The notes under the pieces: model-generated
What the model saw: only the letters and a program-made list of their open reading frames with translations
What the model was told of the DNA's origin: nothing
The model's database searches: none
Part shown: piece by piece, positions 1,947 through 20,422 of the stretch
Numbering within the stretch: the first letter of the stretch is position 1
Layout of the letters: every line of letters starts with the position of its first letter
IMG/VR virus record: IMGVR_UViG_3300030103_001103
Location: 1-20,422 of that record
Source: a virus
Strand: one strand, 5' to 3'
DNA length: 20,422 nt
Program-made: the position numbers and the translations under genes

Positions 1947-2393
1947 ATGTCGAATATAGTTGATAAAGTCTTTAATAATACCGAAGATGGAAAACCAAAC
2001 TACGCTATACAGTTAGTTGATGGTTCTAGGTTATACTGTCGAGGAGAAGTTTTAGACCCAATGCCAAAGTCAGGCGATGCGATTGATTTTACAATTTTGA
2101 ACGTAAAAACATCTAGTAAAGGCAATCCATATACTAACGTCAAAGATGTTAGGATTGCTGACAATCATACGCTTGATGATGATTTGCCTATAACTACACC
2201 AAGTAATACATCATCTATTCGTTTATCTTCTTTGGTAAACGGAGGAAACAAAAACGATACTCAGAGAATGGATATTTTCGTAACTGGTGTTGTTGGTAGA
2301 TCAATGGGTAGTGGTCATTTCAGTGTTGGAGATATAAGCGATTTGACTAAAAATGCAGTGAAAGCATTTAATGACAACCTCAAAAATATCTAA
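1947..2393 (+). CDS. Possible OB-fold single-strand DNA-binding-like protein
   Basis: This 148-residue protein has an N-terminal half of alternating beta-type segments with Gly turns: YAIQLVDGSRLYCRG, then GDAIDFTIL, then YTNVKDVRI, at about residues 19-70. That pattern resembles an OB-fold. An acidic and Ser/Thr-rich linker (about 77-93) follows. The C-terminal part (IFVTGVVGRSMGSGHF and a helix ending AFNDNLKNI) may be a separate module. It sits just before an HNH nuclease and a few genes before a PD-(D/E)XK exonuclease, a setting where phages often carry ssDNA-binding or annealing proteins. The assignment rests on fold impression and context, not on a diagnostic motif. It has the strong (AAT)n-AAGGAG leader, which suggests high expression. 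It overlaps the next gene by 23 bases. Confidence 0.45.
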   Translation: MSNIVDKVFNNTEDGKPNYAIQLVDGSRLYCRGEVLDPMPKSGDAIDFTILNVKTSSKGNPYTNVKDVRIADNHTLDDDLPITTPSNTSSIRLSSLVNGGNKNDTQRMDIFVTGVVGRSMGSGHFSVGDISDLTKNAVKAFNDNLKNI

Positions 2394-2673
2394 AAATTAC
2401 CGAAAGATATTTTACGACTATTGGGGGTTATCTATTGTTGATACCCCCCAGTGTTGGGGTTGCTATCAAAGGCCAGCGGTAGAGATTCATCATCTTACAC
2501 CTAAAGGTATGGGCGGTAGTAAAAAAAATTCTTACAATGTTCCAAGCAATTTGTTTCCTGTGTGTCGTCCCTGTCATACTCTGGCCCACAGCAATAGAAG
2601 AATAAACGAAGAATTTAGAACAGAATTACAACAAAAAATAGAAAATAAGGAATTTGAACAAAATGGCGACTGA
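2371..2673 (+). CDS. HNH endonuclease
   Basis: This 100-residue protein has the layout of a small HNH nuclease. A zinc pair CWGC (C28, C31) leads to the EIHHLTPKGMGG strand-and-loop (H40, H41), then SN at 59-60. CRPCHTLAH follows, with the second zinc pair C65/C68 and histidines H69 and H73. The catalytic His is probably H41, with N60 and H69 or H73 completing the site. The length is typical of free-standing phage HNH enzymes. No clear ribosome site precedes the ATG at 2371, which lies within the previous gene, so translation is probably coupled. Phage HNH proteins act in DNA packaging, recombination or homing; here the neighbours (a possible ssDNA-binding protein and an exonuclease) point to recombination or replication rather than packaging. 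Confidence 0.85.
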   Translation: MTTSKISKNYRKIFYDYWGLSIVDTPQCWGCYQRPAVEIHHLTPKGMGGSKKNSYNVPSNLFPVCRPCHTLAHSNRRINEEFRTELQQKIENKEFEQNGD

Positions 2674-6883: not shown

Positions 6884-7016
6884 GCCCTTGTCCTTTGTAG
6901 GCTTTGAATGATCGCCTTTTATGTTTATTCATTTTTTGTTTACTAGGATTACGGCCAATACTTGTTTTGTGATGTACTGGCTCATGTGCCTCAAAGTTTT
7001 TAAATTTTTTTGCCAT
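6876..7016 (-). CDS. Tiny basic protein (46 residues)
   Basis: The frame from ATG 7016 to TAA 6876-6878 encodes MAKKFKNFEAHEPVHHKTSI, then GRNPSKQKMNKHKRRSFKAY and KGQGRG. It is highly basic with several His and no cysteines or hydrophobic segments. Its start overlaps the stop of the 544-residue protein as TAATG, and its 3' end overlaps the GTG start of the next gene by 8 bases. Its composition is like that of the basic micro-proteins at 4280-4815, although it lies away from them. The function is unknown. Confidence 0.65.
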   Translation of the reverse strand: MAKKFKNFEAHEPVHHKTSIGRNPSKQKMNKHKRRSFKAYKGQGRG

Positions 7017-8650
7017 TATTTATACTGACTATCTATTATTTCATTCATTAATCCATCACTTCCTACAAATAAAAAGTAACCAGCTATATTATTATCAGAA
7101 ATGACGGCATCTGGCAAAGTGAAGTCTGTAAAAAATTCTGCTCTGTCATTTAACTGTTGTTGACTCTCAAAAAATGTTTTAGTGTTTCCCAACACTTGCA
7201 TAACAACTAAAGTTTTTATCTGACTAGATTCATCATACCTTTTTTTATCATCAATTTTTTTCAAAACTTTCTTAGCGGCTTTTTCTTTAGATGAAGTTTT
7301 TTTCTGCACTACTTTGGGTTTTTCGTCTTTTTCTGTCTTTTCTTGTTGCGATTCTTGCTTGTCTTCTGACTTTTTTTCAACTTTTAATGTCTTTGATTTG
7401 TTGGTTTCCTCGTTTGATTCTTCGGTTGTTTCTTCGACTACTTCCTCTTTCGGTTCTTCGTTGGTGTCTGAAACATCGTTATCGGCTTGGTTATTTTCTG
7501 TTTGGTCTGGCTCTGTTGTTGATTCTGTGGTTGTTTCTGTATTCTCTTCTCCACCCACATCTGTATCAATCTCTATTTCAGTTTCTAAATTCATTTCTAA
7601 TTCCATTTCTATCTCCGCCTCTACCTCAATAACATTTACCTCAACCTCAGTCTCAGGCATATCTATATTAGCAACTTGGATTTCTTGAATTTCTATTTCT
7701 GCTATTTCTATTTCAACAGTTTCATAAGTTATTTCTTCGGTTTCGATAGGTTCAAAATCTAAACCAACATCTGTTTCAATAGGTGCGTTTACCTCAAATA
7801 TATCTTCAACAACATCTATAATTTCTTCGGGTGCATCAGTGTTCAAAGCAACAAACATTTCAACGCTTGTTATAGTTTGCTCTACAATAGTATTTATAAC
7901 ATTATACAAAACATTGACTTGAACATCATCGAACATCGGGCCAACGGCCATATTTATATCTCTACCACCAACCTCAATAATAATTGATGTAAGACTACCA
8001 GAAAAATTAAAGCCTCCAGAATATTGGCCGTACTGACTATTTGTGCCGCTTGCACTTAGAATATCAGTCCCACTAAATACATTTGTTGTCCCGTTTTTTC
8101 CTGTGATGTGCATATAAATGGAGTCTTGTGCATCAGGCTTATAAACTTTAATTTCGTAATTAGTTCTGCCTCCATGTGTAAAATTGAGGTCTGATATATC
8201 TACTGTATTAACAAAAGTAGTACCCATGTTTGGAACTCCCATAACACTGGTTGAGTTACCACTACCAGTAATCATAGCACACTTATCAGTACCTAGTTGC
8301 CCGCAAGTAGAACCAGATGGCATTGTTGCCGAACCCTGACCTCCCCAGTCAATATCCATATCTCCCTCTTTTGAGGAAACCACATAATCATTATCTCCGT
8401 CTAAAATATCTGTTGAGTCTTCATTTGTGACTGTGGTTGTCGTTGTTGTTGTAGTTGTTTCAGTAGTTGTTAAAATACCACCATCTTGAAACTCAATAGT
8501 TTCAATGCTAGATTCTTCAATAATCTGCTCAATAGTTGGCATGCAAAGTCCAACTGTATCAGTATCGCAATCTACGGCTTTGCTATAAGAGGGGTATAAG
8601 CATAAAAGTAGCCAAACTAAAAAAAACCCTCCAACCATTCGTTTTGCCAT
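7016..8650 (-). CDS. Large secreted low-complexity protein of unknown function
   Basis: The protein has 544 residues. A signal peptide covers residues 1-25 (FFLVWLLLCLYPSYSKA), with two Cys soon after (C28, C36). A Thr-only run lies near 61-75. Residues about 110-260 look like a folded beta domain (FVNTVDISDLNFTHGG, YEIKVYKPDAQDSIYMHITG, SLTSIIIEVGGRDINMAVG) with a second Cys pair. About 270-365 is a striking acidic beta-like repeat in which Ile or Val alternates with Glu (EIEIAEIEIQEIQ and similar). About 370-460 is a Glu/Thr/Lys-rich linker, and the last 80 residues are folded again. It is probably exported across the inner membrane. It lies between fibre genes and lysis genes, so it could be an envelope-acting or virion surface protein. 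No family is recognised. Confidence 0.75.
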   Translation of the reverse strand: MAKRMVGGFFLVWLLLCLYPSYSKAVDCDTDTVGLCMPTIEQIIEESSIETIEFQDGGILTTTETTTTTTTTTVTNEDSTDILDGDNDYVVSSKEGDMDIDWGGQGSATMPSGSTCGQLGTDKCAMITGSGNSTSVMGVPNMGTTFVNTVDISDLNFTHGGRTNYEIKVYKPDAQDSIYMHITGKNGTTNVFSGTDILSASGTNSQYGQYSGGFNFSGSLTSIIIEVGGRDINMAVGPMFDDVQVNVLYNVINTIVEQTITSVEMFVALNTDAPEEIIDVVEDIFEVNAPIETDVGLDFEPIETEEITYETVEIEIAEIEIQEIQVANIDMPETEVEVNVIEVEAEIEMELEMNLETEIEIDTDVGGEENTETTTESTTEPDQTENNQADNDVSDTNEEPKEEVVEETTEESNEETNKSKTLKVEKKSEDKQESQQEKTEKDEKPKVVQKKTSSKEKAAKKVLKKIDDKKRYDESSQIKTLVVMQVLGNTKTFFESQQQLNDRAEFFTDFTLPDAVISDNNIAGYFLFVGSDGLMNEIIDSQYK

Positions 8651-16500: not shown

Positions 16501-16557
16501 TACAACGTCTGTTACTGTATCAACTATATCCTCTATAATTCCACCCGGGTCACACAT
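13534..16557 (-). CDS. Tail-tip protein, gpJ-like host specificity factor
   Basis: The protein has 1007 residues. The N-terminus has an amphipathic, hydrophobic stretch (VDFVVDLVVDVISWINPIPE, about 18-40) and then VNKISANAHIPIVYGTRQVG, the entry to the tip domain. About residues 60-500 are the body (segments such as DLVSDFVKGTRSYLNFTAGK and QELAEIILRRSRSSLDVSLK are typical of gpJ-type tip proteins). Two fibronectin-III-type units follow (about 520-620, with TYQIRVRAVNTINAKSTFVS, and about 630-720, with QHQMKLTWTPP). A C-terminal beta domain (TITFTNPFFEVPALGIAAQN ... DYIAKGFG) resembles the H-type lectin-like ends of such proteins. It forms the central spike and contacts the host receptor. GGAGG precedes the ATG, which lies inside the GNAT gene's 3' end. 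Confidence 0.85.
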   Translation of the reverse strand: MCDPGGIIEDIVDTVTDVVDFVVDLVVDVISWINPIPEIPDFGGNQPDLNARGVLVNKISANAHIPIVYGTRQVGGNVVFVETSGTDNEFLYMAIIVSEGEIDDITKILVNDNEVTFSGDLSDNTQRTVASSDANYFKAPDADSSAESLITVEPHYGTDSQSASTLLSELSSWTSNHRLRGLAYIALKFKWNSDAFGSLPNVTAIVKGRKVYNPNLDGTKTGGSGSHRQNDSTTWEYSDNGIYQMLDYLRNERFGMGIADSYFDSNFADWQTAGDVVDANITPFSGASQIDLLDSHPVVDTSRKAIDLVSDFVKGTRSYLNFTAGKYKVLVETTGSASITLTEDNIIGGINVASKNKNSRFNRVIVNFTNPNKSYQSDTAQFPPVDETGLASADTHSVMKAADGGILLESKFDFPMIVNQHQAQELAEIILRRSRSSLDVSLKCDGTALDLAIGDIVNITHATPSFSAKPFRIQGMTINTDHTVTLQLSEHQDSYYAFGTQVAPATIPDTTLPNPFSVQPPASVTLDDELIEYADGIVITRLLITVGVSPDKFVENYEVQIKQTLDPDGNAVSDSFREIATGKILSYQHLNVIDEATYQIRVRAVNTINAKSTFVSATRKIVGGVDVPSNVEDFAVEMHGQHQMKLTWTPPSKNSDLDISYYDIRFQDVLTGAKWINSTNLVRCPRRKCDSAIVPARVGSYLIKAVDKNSNSSATETIIATNISGIQAYKTVANFTETPNIFTGLDQMDGTLPLAVKIDPSGDTVITLDTVTNFDDTVGNFDSPTGDFELGGTDSTSNPNFNNKNRDAKGFYNFSNSLSLSQIYDGDVVPSITLDAENPYDLFDSGRGALFFDSARAPFDGTEQLHAFHRVQIATSTTSLADCTSFGDITQSATFKFKFAKFRLKLTNDDDQTSSNVKSIAIKLNIEERTFAESNLATSSGSKTITFTNPFFEVPALGIAAQNMASGDTFTISSKSVNGFSIAFVNSSGAAVDRTFDYIAKGFGLQS

Positions 16558-16996
16558 CTGAGTACCTCCATAATCCGCCTAATTTTTCAAAGCCATATCT
16601 ATCTAGTAATTTATCTGCCATCAATCTAGTTGATATTGTTAAATGAATATGTCTTCCTTTTGCCTGATTTTTAATTATATCCATAGTTTGATTAAATAAT
16701 TTAAATGATCGATATTCTTTTAATATATAAATTACTTGAACTGATAGTAACTGTTCTTTAGACCAAAGATATTCGTTAAATACAAAAATTGTTATTCCAA
16801 CTATTTTATTTTTATCTAAATCTTTGATTAAAATTATTTTTCCTTTTTGTAAAAACATCATCAAAGTTTGTTTCATCTTTGCTCTGTGTATGTGAGGATA
16901 ATCTAATGCTGGGGCCTCTTTTTCAAACTCATTTAATATTTCAAATATTTCGTCCATGTTTTTGTTTGATGCCTCGTAAAAATGAAAACTAGACAT
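16550..16996 (-). CDS. GNAT-like acetyltransferase in the tail-tip operon
   Basis: The 148-residue protein has the GNAT alternation. Helices near 13-52 (MDEIFEILNEF, AKMKQTLMMFLQKG) are followed by strands KIILIKD and VGITIFVFN, then the central strand LLSVQVIYILKEYRSFKLFN (about 83-102). That strand stands where the acetyl-CoA motif lies, but the usual R-x-x-G-x-G/A is degenerate. IHLTISTRLMADKLLDRYGF (117-136) and EKLGGLWRYS form the end and are typical of phage GNATs. It would transfer an acyl group to an unknown target. In gene transfer agents and related phages this slot holds an NlpC/P60 peptidase gene. It overlaps the hub gene as TAATG and the gpJ gene by 8 bases. Confidence 0.7.
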   Translation of the reverse strand: MSSFHFYEASNKNMDEIFEILNEFEKEAPALDYPHIHRAKMKQTLMMFLQKGKIILIKDLDKNKIVGITIFVFNEYLWSKEQLLSVQVIYILKEYRSFKLFNQTMDIIKNQAKGRHIHLTISTRLMADKLLDRYGFEKLGGLWRYSDV

Positions 16997-17562: not shown

Positions 17563-18170
17563 TATAAACTCTCAATAACATCAAACTCAAAATTAAAAAG
17601 TAAGTTACCATCTTTATCATTTGCTCTTGTTTCAAACTCTTGCATATCACTATTTAAATGAACTGTTGCTGGCACAGATTTATAAGTTACTGAACTGTTA
17701 TCAGCTAATGCAGTTCTAAGTGGTGGTTCTATGGTAACAGTTGCGGCGTTACTTGAAGATGTAACATCTGCAACCACCATATATAATTTATCATGTGCAA
17801 ATTTGATTAGGTCTCCCGCTTTAAGACGACCAGCACCATCGCCAGCAAAAGCATCAATATTTATAGTTGTATCTCCAGCAGAGTGAGAACCATTTACTAA
17901 TAAAGTTCCTGTTTCGTTACCTTGACTATCAAAAGTAGTCGGTAAAGTTATTGTAAAATTTTCCTTACGACTTCTTTGTTTTATTATAAAAGCCATTATT
18001 GGGGCAAAGTCTGATCTAGTCATAGTAGGATATGATAAGGTAAAACTAAATCTTTGGCCTTGAACTTGTCTCCTAAATGTTTTGCCACTATCAGTTTCAC
18101 TAAATAAAGTTTTTTGATTTGATTTAAAATTAATTGCGTTGAACGCTGTATCAGGTAAAGAACCACTCAT
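17562..18170 (-). CDS. Distal tail protein (DUF2460-like position)
   Basis: This 202-residue protein is all-beta: LPDTAFNAINFKSNQKTLFS, then FRRQVQGQRFSFTLSYPTMT, RSDFAPIMAFIIKQRSRKEN and FTITLPTTF. A long inserted beta region (about 85-165, LKAGDLIKFAHDKLYMVVAD) and a last strand (NLLFNFEFDVIESL) complete it. The pattern 'distorted tail-tube-like fold with QRF/W...l.yp.mt...f.pi.afi..q.G/S.' is that of distal tail proteins, and its place directly after the tape measure agrees. It joins the tube to the tip hub. Its start overlaps the tape measure stop as ATGA. Confidence 0.7.
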   Translation of the reverse strand: MSGSLPDTAFNAINFKSNQKTLFSETDSGKTFRRQVQGQRFSFTLSYPTMTRSDFAPIMAFIIKQRSRKENFTITLPTTFDSQGNETGTLLVNGSHSAGDTTINIDAFAGDGAGRLKAGDLIKFAHDKLYMVVADVTSSSNAATVTIEPPLRTALADNSSVTYKSVPATVHLNSDMQEFETRANDKDGNLLFNFEFDVIESL

Positions 18171-20131
18171 ATCAATGCCGCCTTACCTTTTTCATTAACA
18201 GCACTGTTAATCATATTTACAATAACACCTCTGCTATTAACTAATAACTCATTAAAACCTCTTGCATCAACAGTATTTATATTAAAGTTTACTGTTACTG
18301 GTTTTGACATACCAAGTTGATTGTTCGGTACTATTGTTCCAGCTTGGTCAGGTACAAACAACTCTGGCCCTTTTTCTCCTACTATTGATGGCTGGCCCAT
18401 AGGTGGTCGTCCACCTTTTTCAAAACCTTTTATTTTATTTACCATACCCATACCAAAAGCTATTGCACCTCCAACAGCCGCAATATTAAATGGGAAAGGA
18501 ATAGATGCAAAAGTTCTTAATGCACCCTCATAAACACTAATTAACGCTTTTTTTATTGCGTCCATTTTAAACATAGCCATAGCTTTATTGACTGCGGCTT
18601 GAACTGCTTTTCCTATTAATGCCTCAATGATTGCTCTTTTAACTACATCAGCAAACTTTTTCATATTAAGTTCGCCTGTAACTACAAAATCAGTCAATGT
18701 TTGTTTTAATGAATCAAATGCAGTTTTTCCAGCTTTAACAAATCCATCTATAGTATCTTTGTTCATAGCCTCCATAAAACCCTCTTTAAATTTACCAAAA
18801 CTTTCTGTTAGAAAACCTACTGATTCTGCTTGATCATCTAGTCCAAATGTAATTTCTTGCAAAGGAACTGACATCAATGCCTCTCTTATGCTTTCAATCA
18901 TTCCCTCTAATCTTACAAATTCAGCACTATTCTCTCCAACCTCAATTTGCATTTTTTTCAAAGCATCTATTGTTCTATGAGCCTCATCTTGCATTCTTCT
19001 AAATTTACTATGTGCAGTAAAATCTTTTTCATCAAGTAATCCTATTTGTTCGTTTAGTAGTTCAACTTCAGACGCAAAATCCTCTATTGTTTTAGGTTTT
19101 TCAAATTTTGCTAATAGTTTGTCTAAAGCCCCTGTGTAGTCTGCTAAAAGAACAGCACCAGCGGCTATCAAACCAGCAAGGTTTTTCATAGATTTTTTAT
19201 TAAACGCCATCATAGCGACACCAGCTTTTTTAATTGCAACTGTTAATCCTATGAATGCTTTTGTCATACCAAAGACAATAGTAGCTAAAGCAACTTTTTT
19301 AATAAGTTCCATGTTTTCGTGCATAAATCTAAAAGCATCTGCCGCAAAAGTGACAGCATTTGCTAAACCTTTACCAACAGATTCTGCTATATCTAAAATC
19401 AACCCCTCGTTAGCGGCTAACGCCTCATCTAATGCACCAAACTCTTTTTTAAGTGCAACAAAAAATTGTTCTGCAACTGTTTTTTGAAAATTAAAGAACT
19501 TATCTCCTATCATTGATAAAGTTCCCTCTAAAGTATTTGCAAGATCATCAGTAGCACCAGCAAACTCTCCATCTTTACCAAATACTCTAAACAAAGCCTC
19601 TCTTGTTTGTTCAACTGAAACTGTTGCACCAGCACTAAATCCTAACATGGATTTGACACCTTTTTCTCTAAATAAATCAGCACTTGAAATACCAGCAGAT
19701 AATGACCTTTGTATTTGCTCTGCCGTTGTTCTAAAATCTAATCCTGTAACTGCCGCTACGTTACCAGTAAGTTCTAATACTTTTGAAAGTTCGTTTGCAT
19801 CTTTACTAACAACAGCAAGAACACCAGCACCCGATTGAATTTCTCCAAGAGAGAAAGGTACTTTACTAGCAAACTTAGCCATAGCGTCAAAGGCTCTTGA
19901 ACCCTCTTCAACACTTCCAAATAAAAATTTTAATCTAACTTGAAGTGATTCGACTGATTTACCTACATCAACAAAACCTTTTATAGCAACACCAGCACCT
20001 AAACCAATTAGTGCATTTTTTAAATTTAATACTGAACTTTTTACACCATCAACCCCTTTAGTTGCGGATTGCATCGCTTGTCTTGTTTTGTCTTTTGCGA
20101 CTAGATCAATATTTACTTTTTTTGTTGCCAT
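18167..20131 (-). CDS. Tail tape measure protein
   Basis: The 654-residue protein sets tail length. It has a polar Lys-rich start (ATKKVNIDLVAKDKTRQAMQ), then a long helical region. Hydrophobic segments lie near 275-315 (KKVALATIVFGMTKAFIGLT) and 545-570 (FPFNIAAVGGAIAFGMGMV), with a shorter one near 330. The C-terminal signature GEKGPELFVPDQAGTIVPN lies near 581-599. The N-terminal 200 residues contain VPFSLGEIQSGAGVLAVVSK and DLFREKGVKSMLGF, seen in siphophage tape measures. At about 0.15 nm per residue, the length predicts a tail near 100 nm. I see no lysozyme or peptidase domain. It is the first gene after the frameshifted chaperone and starts right after its TAG. Confidence 0.93.
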   Translation of the reverse strand: MATKKVNIDLVAKDKTRQAMQSATKGVDGVKSSVLNLKNALIGLGAGVAIKGFVDVGKSVESLQVRLKFLFGSVEEGSRAFDAMAKFASKVPFSLGEIQSGAGVLAVVSKDANELSKVLELTGNVAAVTGLDFRTTAEQIQRSLSAGISSADLFREKGVKSMLGFSAGATVSVEQTREALFRVFGKDGEFAGATDDLANTLEGTLSMIGDKFFNFQKTVAEQFFVALKKEFGALDEALAANEGLILDIAESVGKGLANAVTFAADAFRFMHENMELIKKVALATIVFGMTKAFIGLTVAIKKAGVAMMAFNKKSMKNLAGLIAAGAVLLADYTGALDKLLAKFEKPKTIEDFASEVELLNEQIGLLDEKDFTAHSKFRRMQDEAHRTIDALKKMQIEVGENSAEFVRLEGMIESIREALMSVPLQEITFGLDDQAESVGFLTESFGKFKEGFMEAMNKDTIDGFVKAGKTAFDSLKQTLTDFVVTGELNMKKFADVVKRAIIEALIGKAVQAAVNKAMAMFKMDAIKKALISVYEGALRTFASIPFPFNIAAVGGAIAFGMGMVNKIKGFEKGGRPPMGQPSIVGEKGPELFVPDQAGTIVPNNQLGMSKPVTVNFNINTVDARGFNELLVNSRGVIVNMINSAVNEKGKAALI

Positions 20132-20305
20132 CTATTTTTTCATTCTTGCAATACGTTCTTGCCTTTCTTTTTCTTCTCTTTGAAGATCGAAATATGCAAG
20201 CCACATATTAAACTCATCAACTGGCATTTGCAAGATTTCAGATGCAGTCTTACTTAGTTTTTCAGCTAAGGCAAATATATTGTGTAGTTCTGGATTATTT
20301 TTTAG
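20132..20305 (-). CDS. Frameshift extension of the tail assembly chaperone (gpT-like)
   Basis: In the -1 frame, 57 residues run from CTA at 20305 to TAG at 20132-20134, directly against the tape measure ATG. They contain FALAEKLSKTASEILQMP and VDEFNMWLAYFDLQREEKER, a helical, charged domain like the T part of lambda gpGT. This frame has a stop at 20312-20314 and no suitable start, so it cannot be made alone in full; it must be read through the slip site at 20305-20311. The fusion (G then T) would bind the tape measure and tail tube subunits and help assembly without entering the virion. Confidence 0.85.
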   Translation of the reverse strand, partial: LKNNPELHNIFALAEKLSKTASEILQMPVDEFNMWLAYFDLQREEKERQERIARMKK

Positions 20306-20422
20306 TTTTTTTTAGTGTCGTTTATATCCACATTTTGAGTTCCCATAATTTTACTGGCGACATCAGCTATTATATTTGTATCTGCTTTTGTTTTAAAACT
20401 AAGAATGTGAGTAGCGTTAAAC
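20302..20422 (-). CDS. Tail assembly chaperone (gpG-like), C-terminal part, runs off the right edge
   Basis: The zero frame is open from the window edge to TAA at 20302-20304, about 39 residues: ATHILSFKTKADTNIIADVA, then SKIMGTQNVDINDTKKN. It ends exactly where the slippery heptamer lies. Position directly before the tape measure gene and the -1 extension identify it as the first of the two tail chaperones. The start of the gene is outside the window, so its length and ribosome site cannot be judged. Confidence 0.75.
   Translation of the reverse strand, partial: FNATHILSFKTKADTNIIADVASKIMGTQNVDINDTKKN
20305..20311 (-). promoter_or_regulatory. Programmed -1 ribosomal frameshift site (A AAA AAC)
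   Basis: The minus strand reads ACT AAA AAA AAC TAA in the zero frame, which contains the canonical heptamer A AAA AAC. The zero frame ends at TAA 20302-20304. The -1 frame is closed upstream by TAA at 20312-20314. The two frames therefore overlap only at the heptamer itself. A weak hairpin (CTTAG with CTAAG) lies about 35 bases downstream. The site is part of a run of eight A, so transcript slippage could add to the effect. Confidence 0.88.

Follow-up and report, generated by a model that had tools for sequence, protein, structure and literature searches.

A putative G/GT-type −1 frameshift site with an abutting stop codon in the tail assembly chaperone of a marine phage and its relatives

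The minus strand of the window (the whole 20,422-base viral record analysed here) carries a site that is very probably a programmed −1 ribosomal frameshift of the lambda-type G/GT kind known from long-tailed phages. Three characteristic features of such sites are found: two overlapping frames lie directly upstream of the tape measure gene, an in-register X_XXY_YYZ heptamer is located in their overlap and is kept in relatives, and the −1 extension is constrained coding sequence that fuses in frame with G, the fusion having been taken from the relative L085. We infer ribosomal shifting, and a role of the products in tail assembly, from the sequence of the site, its conservation, the coding character of both frames and the selection acting on it.

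The slip site and its genes

Around the site, the minus strand reads GAC ACT AAA AAA AAC TAA. The slip heptamer A_AAA_AAC (20305–20311, read from 20311 to 20305) is in the register of the zero frame, within a run of eight A residues (20306–20313), and the zero frame of G terminates as K-K-N-stop with a TAA (20302–20304) abutting the heptamer on its 3′ side. A −1-frame TAA (20312–20314) abuts it on the 5′ side, and the stretch open in both frames is exactly 7 nt long. The viral record stops inside G, of which the last 39 codons and the stop are retained (20302–20422) while the 5′ part and the start are cut off; in relatives, the zero frame is open for approximately 115–125 codons. After its 5′ stop, the −1 frame translates as KKLKNNPELHNIFALAEKLSKTASEILQMPVDEFNMWLAYFDLQREEKERQERIARMKK, the T domain (20135–20311), comprising 59 codons, 57 of which fall past the two slip codons. 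The TAG that would end the G–T fusion (20132–20134) adjoins the ATG (20131–20129) of a 654-residue tape measure protein (18167–20131), which matches Tape_meas_lam_C above the cut-off. The sequence-only reading had already described the in-phase heptamer upstream of the tape measure, the stops immediately after and before it and the 57-residue −1 run to a TAG touching the tape measure ATG, and all of these coordinates and counts hold on the minus strand.

That reading had also likened the gene to the gpG/gpGT chaperones, and both halves do match tail assembly chaperone families. The −1 frame of the window matches phrog_25875 (tail assembly chaperone, E 2.7e-07) and phrog_337 (tail protein). Since G is cut in the window, the fusion was examined in L085, the 175-residue G–T product of which matches the tail assembly chaperone family phrog_16513 (E 9.7e-16) across the frame junction, with fusion residues 12–159 of 175 aligned to profile positions 9–156 of 160. 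A Pfam profile search of G and T gave no real match, only weak ones below threshold, and an NCBIfam search with the G–T fusion returned none.

Downstream lie tail genes with relatives in cultured Pelagibacter phages, and for this reason a SAR11 host is likely for this marine phage. An acetyltransferase-like gene (16550–16996, minus strand; phrog_1249, E 4.5e-09) lies amid these tail genes, and the tail region of HTVC111P also carries an annotated lysine-acyltransferase. Elsewhere in the window, a 100-residue protein (2371–2673, plus strand) weakly resembles IscB and HNH nuclease-like families, with matches under the curated cut-offs, and a 544-residue open frame (7016–8650, minus strand) has a long acidic Glu/Thr-rich middle.

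Conservation and selection in relatives

Related loci were drawn from viral contigs and phage records, yielding 203 unique sequences. Synonymous breakage of the heptamer in relatives, which the sequence-only reading had named as evidence against a frameshift, was not encountered: the heptamer is held in register in 202 of the 203, as AAAAAAC (180), AAAAAAA (14), AAAAAAT (4), AAAAAAG (3) or GGGAAAC (1). The sole failure, L059, carries one extra A in the run relative to its near-identical sister L058 and looks like a homopolymer indel. Homopolymer runs are error-prone, as this pair differing by one A recalls, and the frame break could in principle be a sequencing or assembly error or mark a decayed gene; the break recurs at an identical position in some 200 unique relatives, drawn from many samples, and in cultured phage genomes, and this recurrence, together with coding constraint on both frames, refutes this reading and leaves it a negligible probability. 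A genome-contig scan with a roseophage T query found no relative, and Pelagiphage Kolga EXVC016S, the tape measure of which is related, yielded no comparable site around the end of its upstream gene.

The zero-frame stop follows the heptamer with a spacing of 0 nt in 186 of the 202 sequences, 3 nt in five and 12 nt in 11. When T was clustered at 70%, 15 of the 17 clusters contained members with zero spacing and 13 had it throughout, and the 12-nt exceptions arise in two separate clades. In L021, L022, L062, L064, L065 and some members of the pelagiB clade, spread over two separate clades, CTT or CTC replaces CTA, and the zero frame, having lost the abutting stop, meets its next one after 12 nt. 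Such relatives offer a natural test of what the stop does.

Both frames are under coding constraint in the relatives compared. In all three clades analysed, variability follows the codon positions of the zero frame upstream of the heptamer and those of the −1 frame downstream of it; in the clade of the window, mean site entropies are 0.50, 0.47 and 1.25 at zero-frame positions 1–3 upstream and 0.48, 0.26 and 0.83 at −1-frame positions 1–3 downstream. Heptamer bases 1–6 are invariant in all three clades, the analysis having taken only sequences in which the heptamer was found (all but L059). The residues of T are conserved from its very first ones, whereas in the pelagiphage clades a start codon is conserved at the earliest near codon 27, and in the roseophage clade none is conserved either. 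Given its place directly after G and just ahead of the tape measure, T might instead be translated alone, by re-initiation or coupling after the stop of G and without fusion, but no start codon is conserved at the first residues of T, where its conservation sets in, and the in-register heptamer would be needless; the chance of this being the case is minute.

Synonymous positions speak for selection on the site itself. At base seven of the heptamer a C/T exchange is synonymous in both frames, and T is preferred or equally used, yet C is kept: AAC makes up 20% of the Asn codons in the clade of the window, while base seven is C in 21 of 22 clusters (90% clustering). Likewise, the last base of the Leu codon CTA in the −1 frame sets whether the zero frame stops at once, and other CTN codons would also encode Leu; CTA accounts for 14% of CTA plus TTA in this clade, and the abutting stop is present in 22 of 23 clusters against at most 33% expected. 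Across the three clades at 90% clustering, the P values are 5e-14, 3e-12 and 7e-8 for retention of C and 5e-10, 2e-8 and 2e-9 for retention of CTA and the stop, these being binomial values on clusters of shared ancestry, the independence of which is thereby overstated. On this pattern of synonymous retention, the heptamer and the abutting 3′ stop are judged to be under selection.

These observations bear on a further explanation, in which RNA polymerase slips on the A run and T is reached by ordinary translation of transcripts with an extra A. The run comprises eight A residues in the window and nine in the pelagiB clade, and such runs have been tied to transcriptional slippage (PMC4066793). 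However, the roseophage homologues have only seven and the Cronusvirus homologues GGGAAAC, in the same place and layout, and polymerase slippage gives no purpose to selection for C at base seven or for the codon register; conservation of a homopolymer run irrespective of codon register, as looked for in transcriptional slippage, was not seen. As the layout persists in the A7 and GGGAAAC homologues and base seven and the register are selected, slippage of the polymerase is disfavoured and appears very unlikely.

The sequence-only reading had further remarked that the two frames overlap only at the heptamer. This is true of the window and general with regard to the 3′ stop, while outside the clade of the window the 5′ stop seldom abuts the heptamer. 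Within this clade, the 5′ stop depends on a wobble T ahead of the A8 run; codon use predicts this T in 34.5 of the 53 distinct sequences, and it is present in 48. In many other lineages the −1 frame opens further upstream, giving overlaps of 13–103 nt, and a 7-nt overlap recurs in a few distant relatives. As the 5′ stop is common in this clade and longer overlaps prevail elsewhere, the seven-base overlap is mainly a feature of the clade, perhaps mildly selected there.

Proposed mechanism and candidate stimulators

Under programmed ribosomal frameshifting, the majority of ribosomes would end G at the TAA and release a short chaperone, while in a minority the Lys-tRNA on AAA and the Asn-tRNA on AAC would slip by −1 onto AAA AAA, escape the adjacent stop, add the 57 residues of T and terminate against the start of the tape measure gene. 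In lambda, G attaches to the tape measure, and recruitment of the tail tube protein falls to T (PMC5009743); G and G–T would serve here as tail assembly chaperones in the same manner. In E. coli, A_AAA_AAC has been reported to be far less shift-prone than A_AAA_AAG (PMC5009743); IS1 shifts on A_AAA_AAC at about 2% (PMC12428005).

Stimulatory elements vary by lineage. In the pelagiphage clades, including that of the window, Shine–Dalgarno-like sequence 5′ of the heptamer was equal to the control, while the roseophage clade has an SD-like GAGG 5′ of the site (−5.88 versus −2.38 for the control). Conserved RNA structure was sought in three ways in the clade of the window and none was significant; the best 3′ helix scored 11.5 against a null of 10.3 (sd 0.5, maximum 11.7) in a helix search with a model that excludes pseudoknots. 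In the roseophages, an 11-pair long-range helix begins 6 nt past the heptamer, with 417 of 429 cells paired compared with 363 (sd 6.6) under synonymous resampling. As this helix was tested on the very sequences in which it had been discovered, the stronger control is the search for the best helix anywhere, in which the best 9-pair roseophage helix scores 20.8 versus a null maximum of 14.2 (sd 0.5). In the roseophage locus L164 (heptamer at 2501–2507), GCGACCCATTC, 6 nt past the heptamer, can pair with GAATGGGTCGC, which lies approximately 80 nt downstream. This predicted helix, conserved more strongly than coding would require, is a candidate frameshift stimulator. Hairpins are also predicted 3′ of the site in several of the GC-richer phages.

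The stop directly 3′ of the heptamer may tentatively be considered a stimulator itself, although we regard this as rather unlikely; a mere need to end G at once could also account for its conservation. While AAA occupies the E site, AAC the P site and the stop the A site, slow termination would allow time for the slip, and in the AT-rich pelagiphages the abutting stop would replace the Shine–Dalgarno element and RNA structure of their relatives. An abutting stop is reported to contribute to shifting in some plant RNA viruses, and in Pea enation mosaic virus a sense codon in place of the post-slip stop cut −1 shifting by 72% in vitro (PMC4737148). In HIV-1 constructs, release factor was able to reach a stop positioned immediately 3′ of the slip site (PMC4373837).

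Known counterparts and significance

The kind of site and its layout are already known, since phiKO2, PY54, a Providencia phage and CharmingMan share them, while most of the pelagiphage and roseophage members lack annotation. The chaperone genes of phiKO2 (gp13/gp14, Klebsiella) and PY54 (Yersinia) have, as in the window, A_AAA_AAC followed directly by TAA, with T in the −1 frame and adjoining the tape measure gene; they differ in being GC-richer, in a GGAGG-like or GAGG-like sequence 5′ of the site and in a T of about 80 residues. The phiKO2 genes were deposited as joined frames with the remark "putative programmed frameshift", and the no-spacer stop after A_AAA_AAC also occurs in the Providencia phage and in CharmingMan. 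Lambda gpG/gpGT shares the gene order, the −1 frame and the position of G–T ahead of the tape measure, but uses G_GGA_AAG with 15 nt to the stop of G, the comparison being one of layout. In published phage sets, the distance from heptamer to stop averages 26 and 36 nt (PMC10885494). The Cronusvirus chaperones (RcCronus and vB_DshS-R4C) have a homologous T and a TGA directly after the heptamer; they differ in the heptamer itself (G_GGA_AAC), in being GC-rich and in a predicted strong hairpin 3′ of the site, and the RcCronus record was deposited as joined frames.

The closest cultured counterparts are the Pelagibacter phages HTVC202P, HTVC026P, HTVC111P and HTVC112P, which have a homologous T, tape measure and distal tail protein in the same layout; HTVC111P and HTVC112P use A_AAA_AAG, and all four records are devoid of frameshift annotation. 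As anticipated from the sequence alone, gene callers drop the extension: in these four records and those of CRP-811, CRP-823 and CRP-406, G and the tape measure are annotated and T is absent. In HTVC111P and HTVC112P, a minus-strand hypothetical protein, probably spurious, is annotated over the T domain (3062–3214 in L162 and 3062–3208 in L163). A literature search found no paper naming HTVC202P, and none of those read describes this site in pelagiphages.

Deposited pelagiphage and roseophage genomes thus miss the T domain. The strict no-spacer stop allows the part played by an abutting stop in bacterial −1 frameshifting to be tested, and a large group of marine phages, for the most part without annotation of the site, very probably joins a known recoding family.
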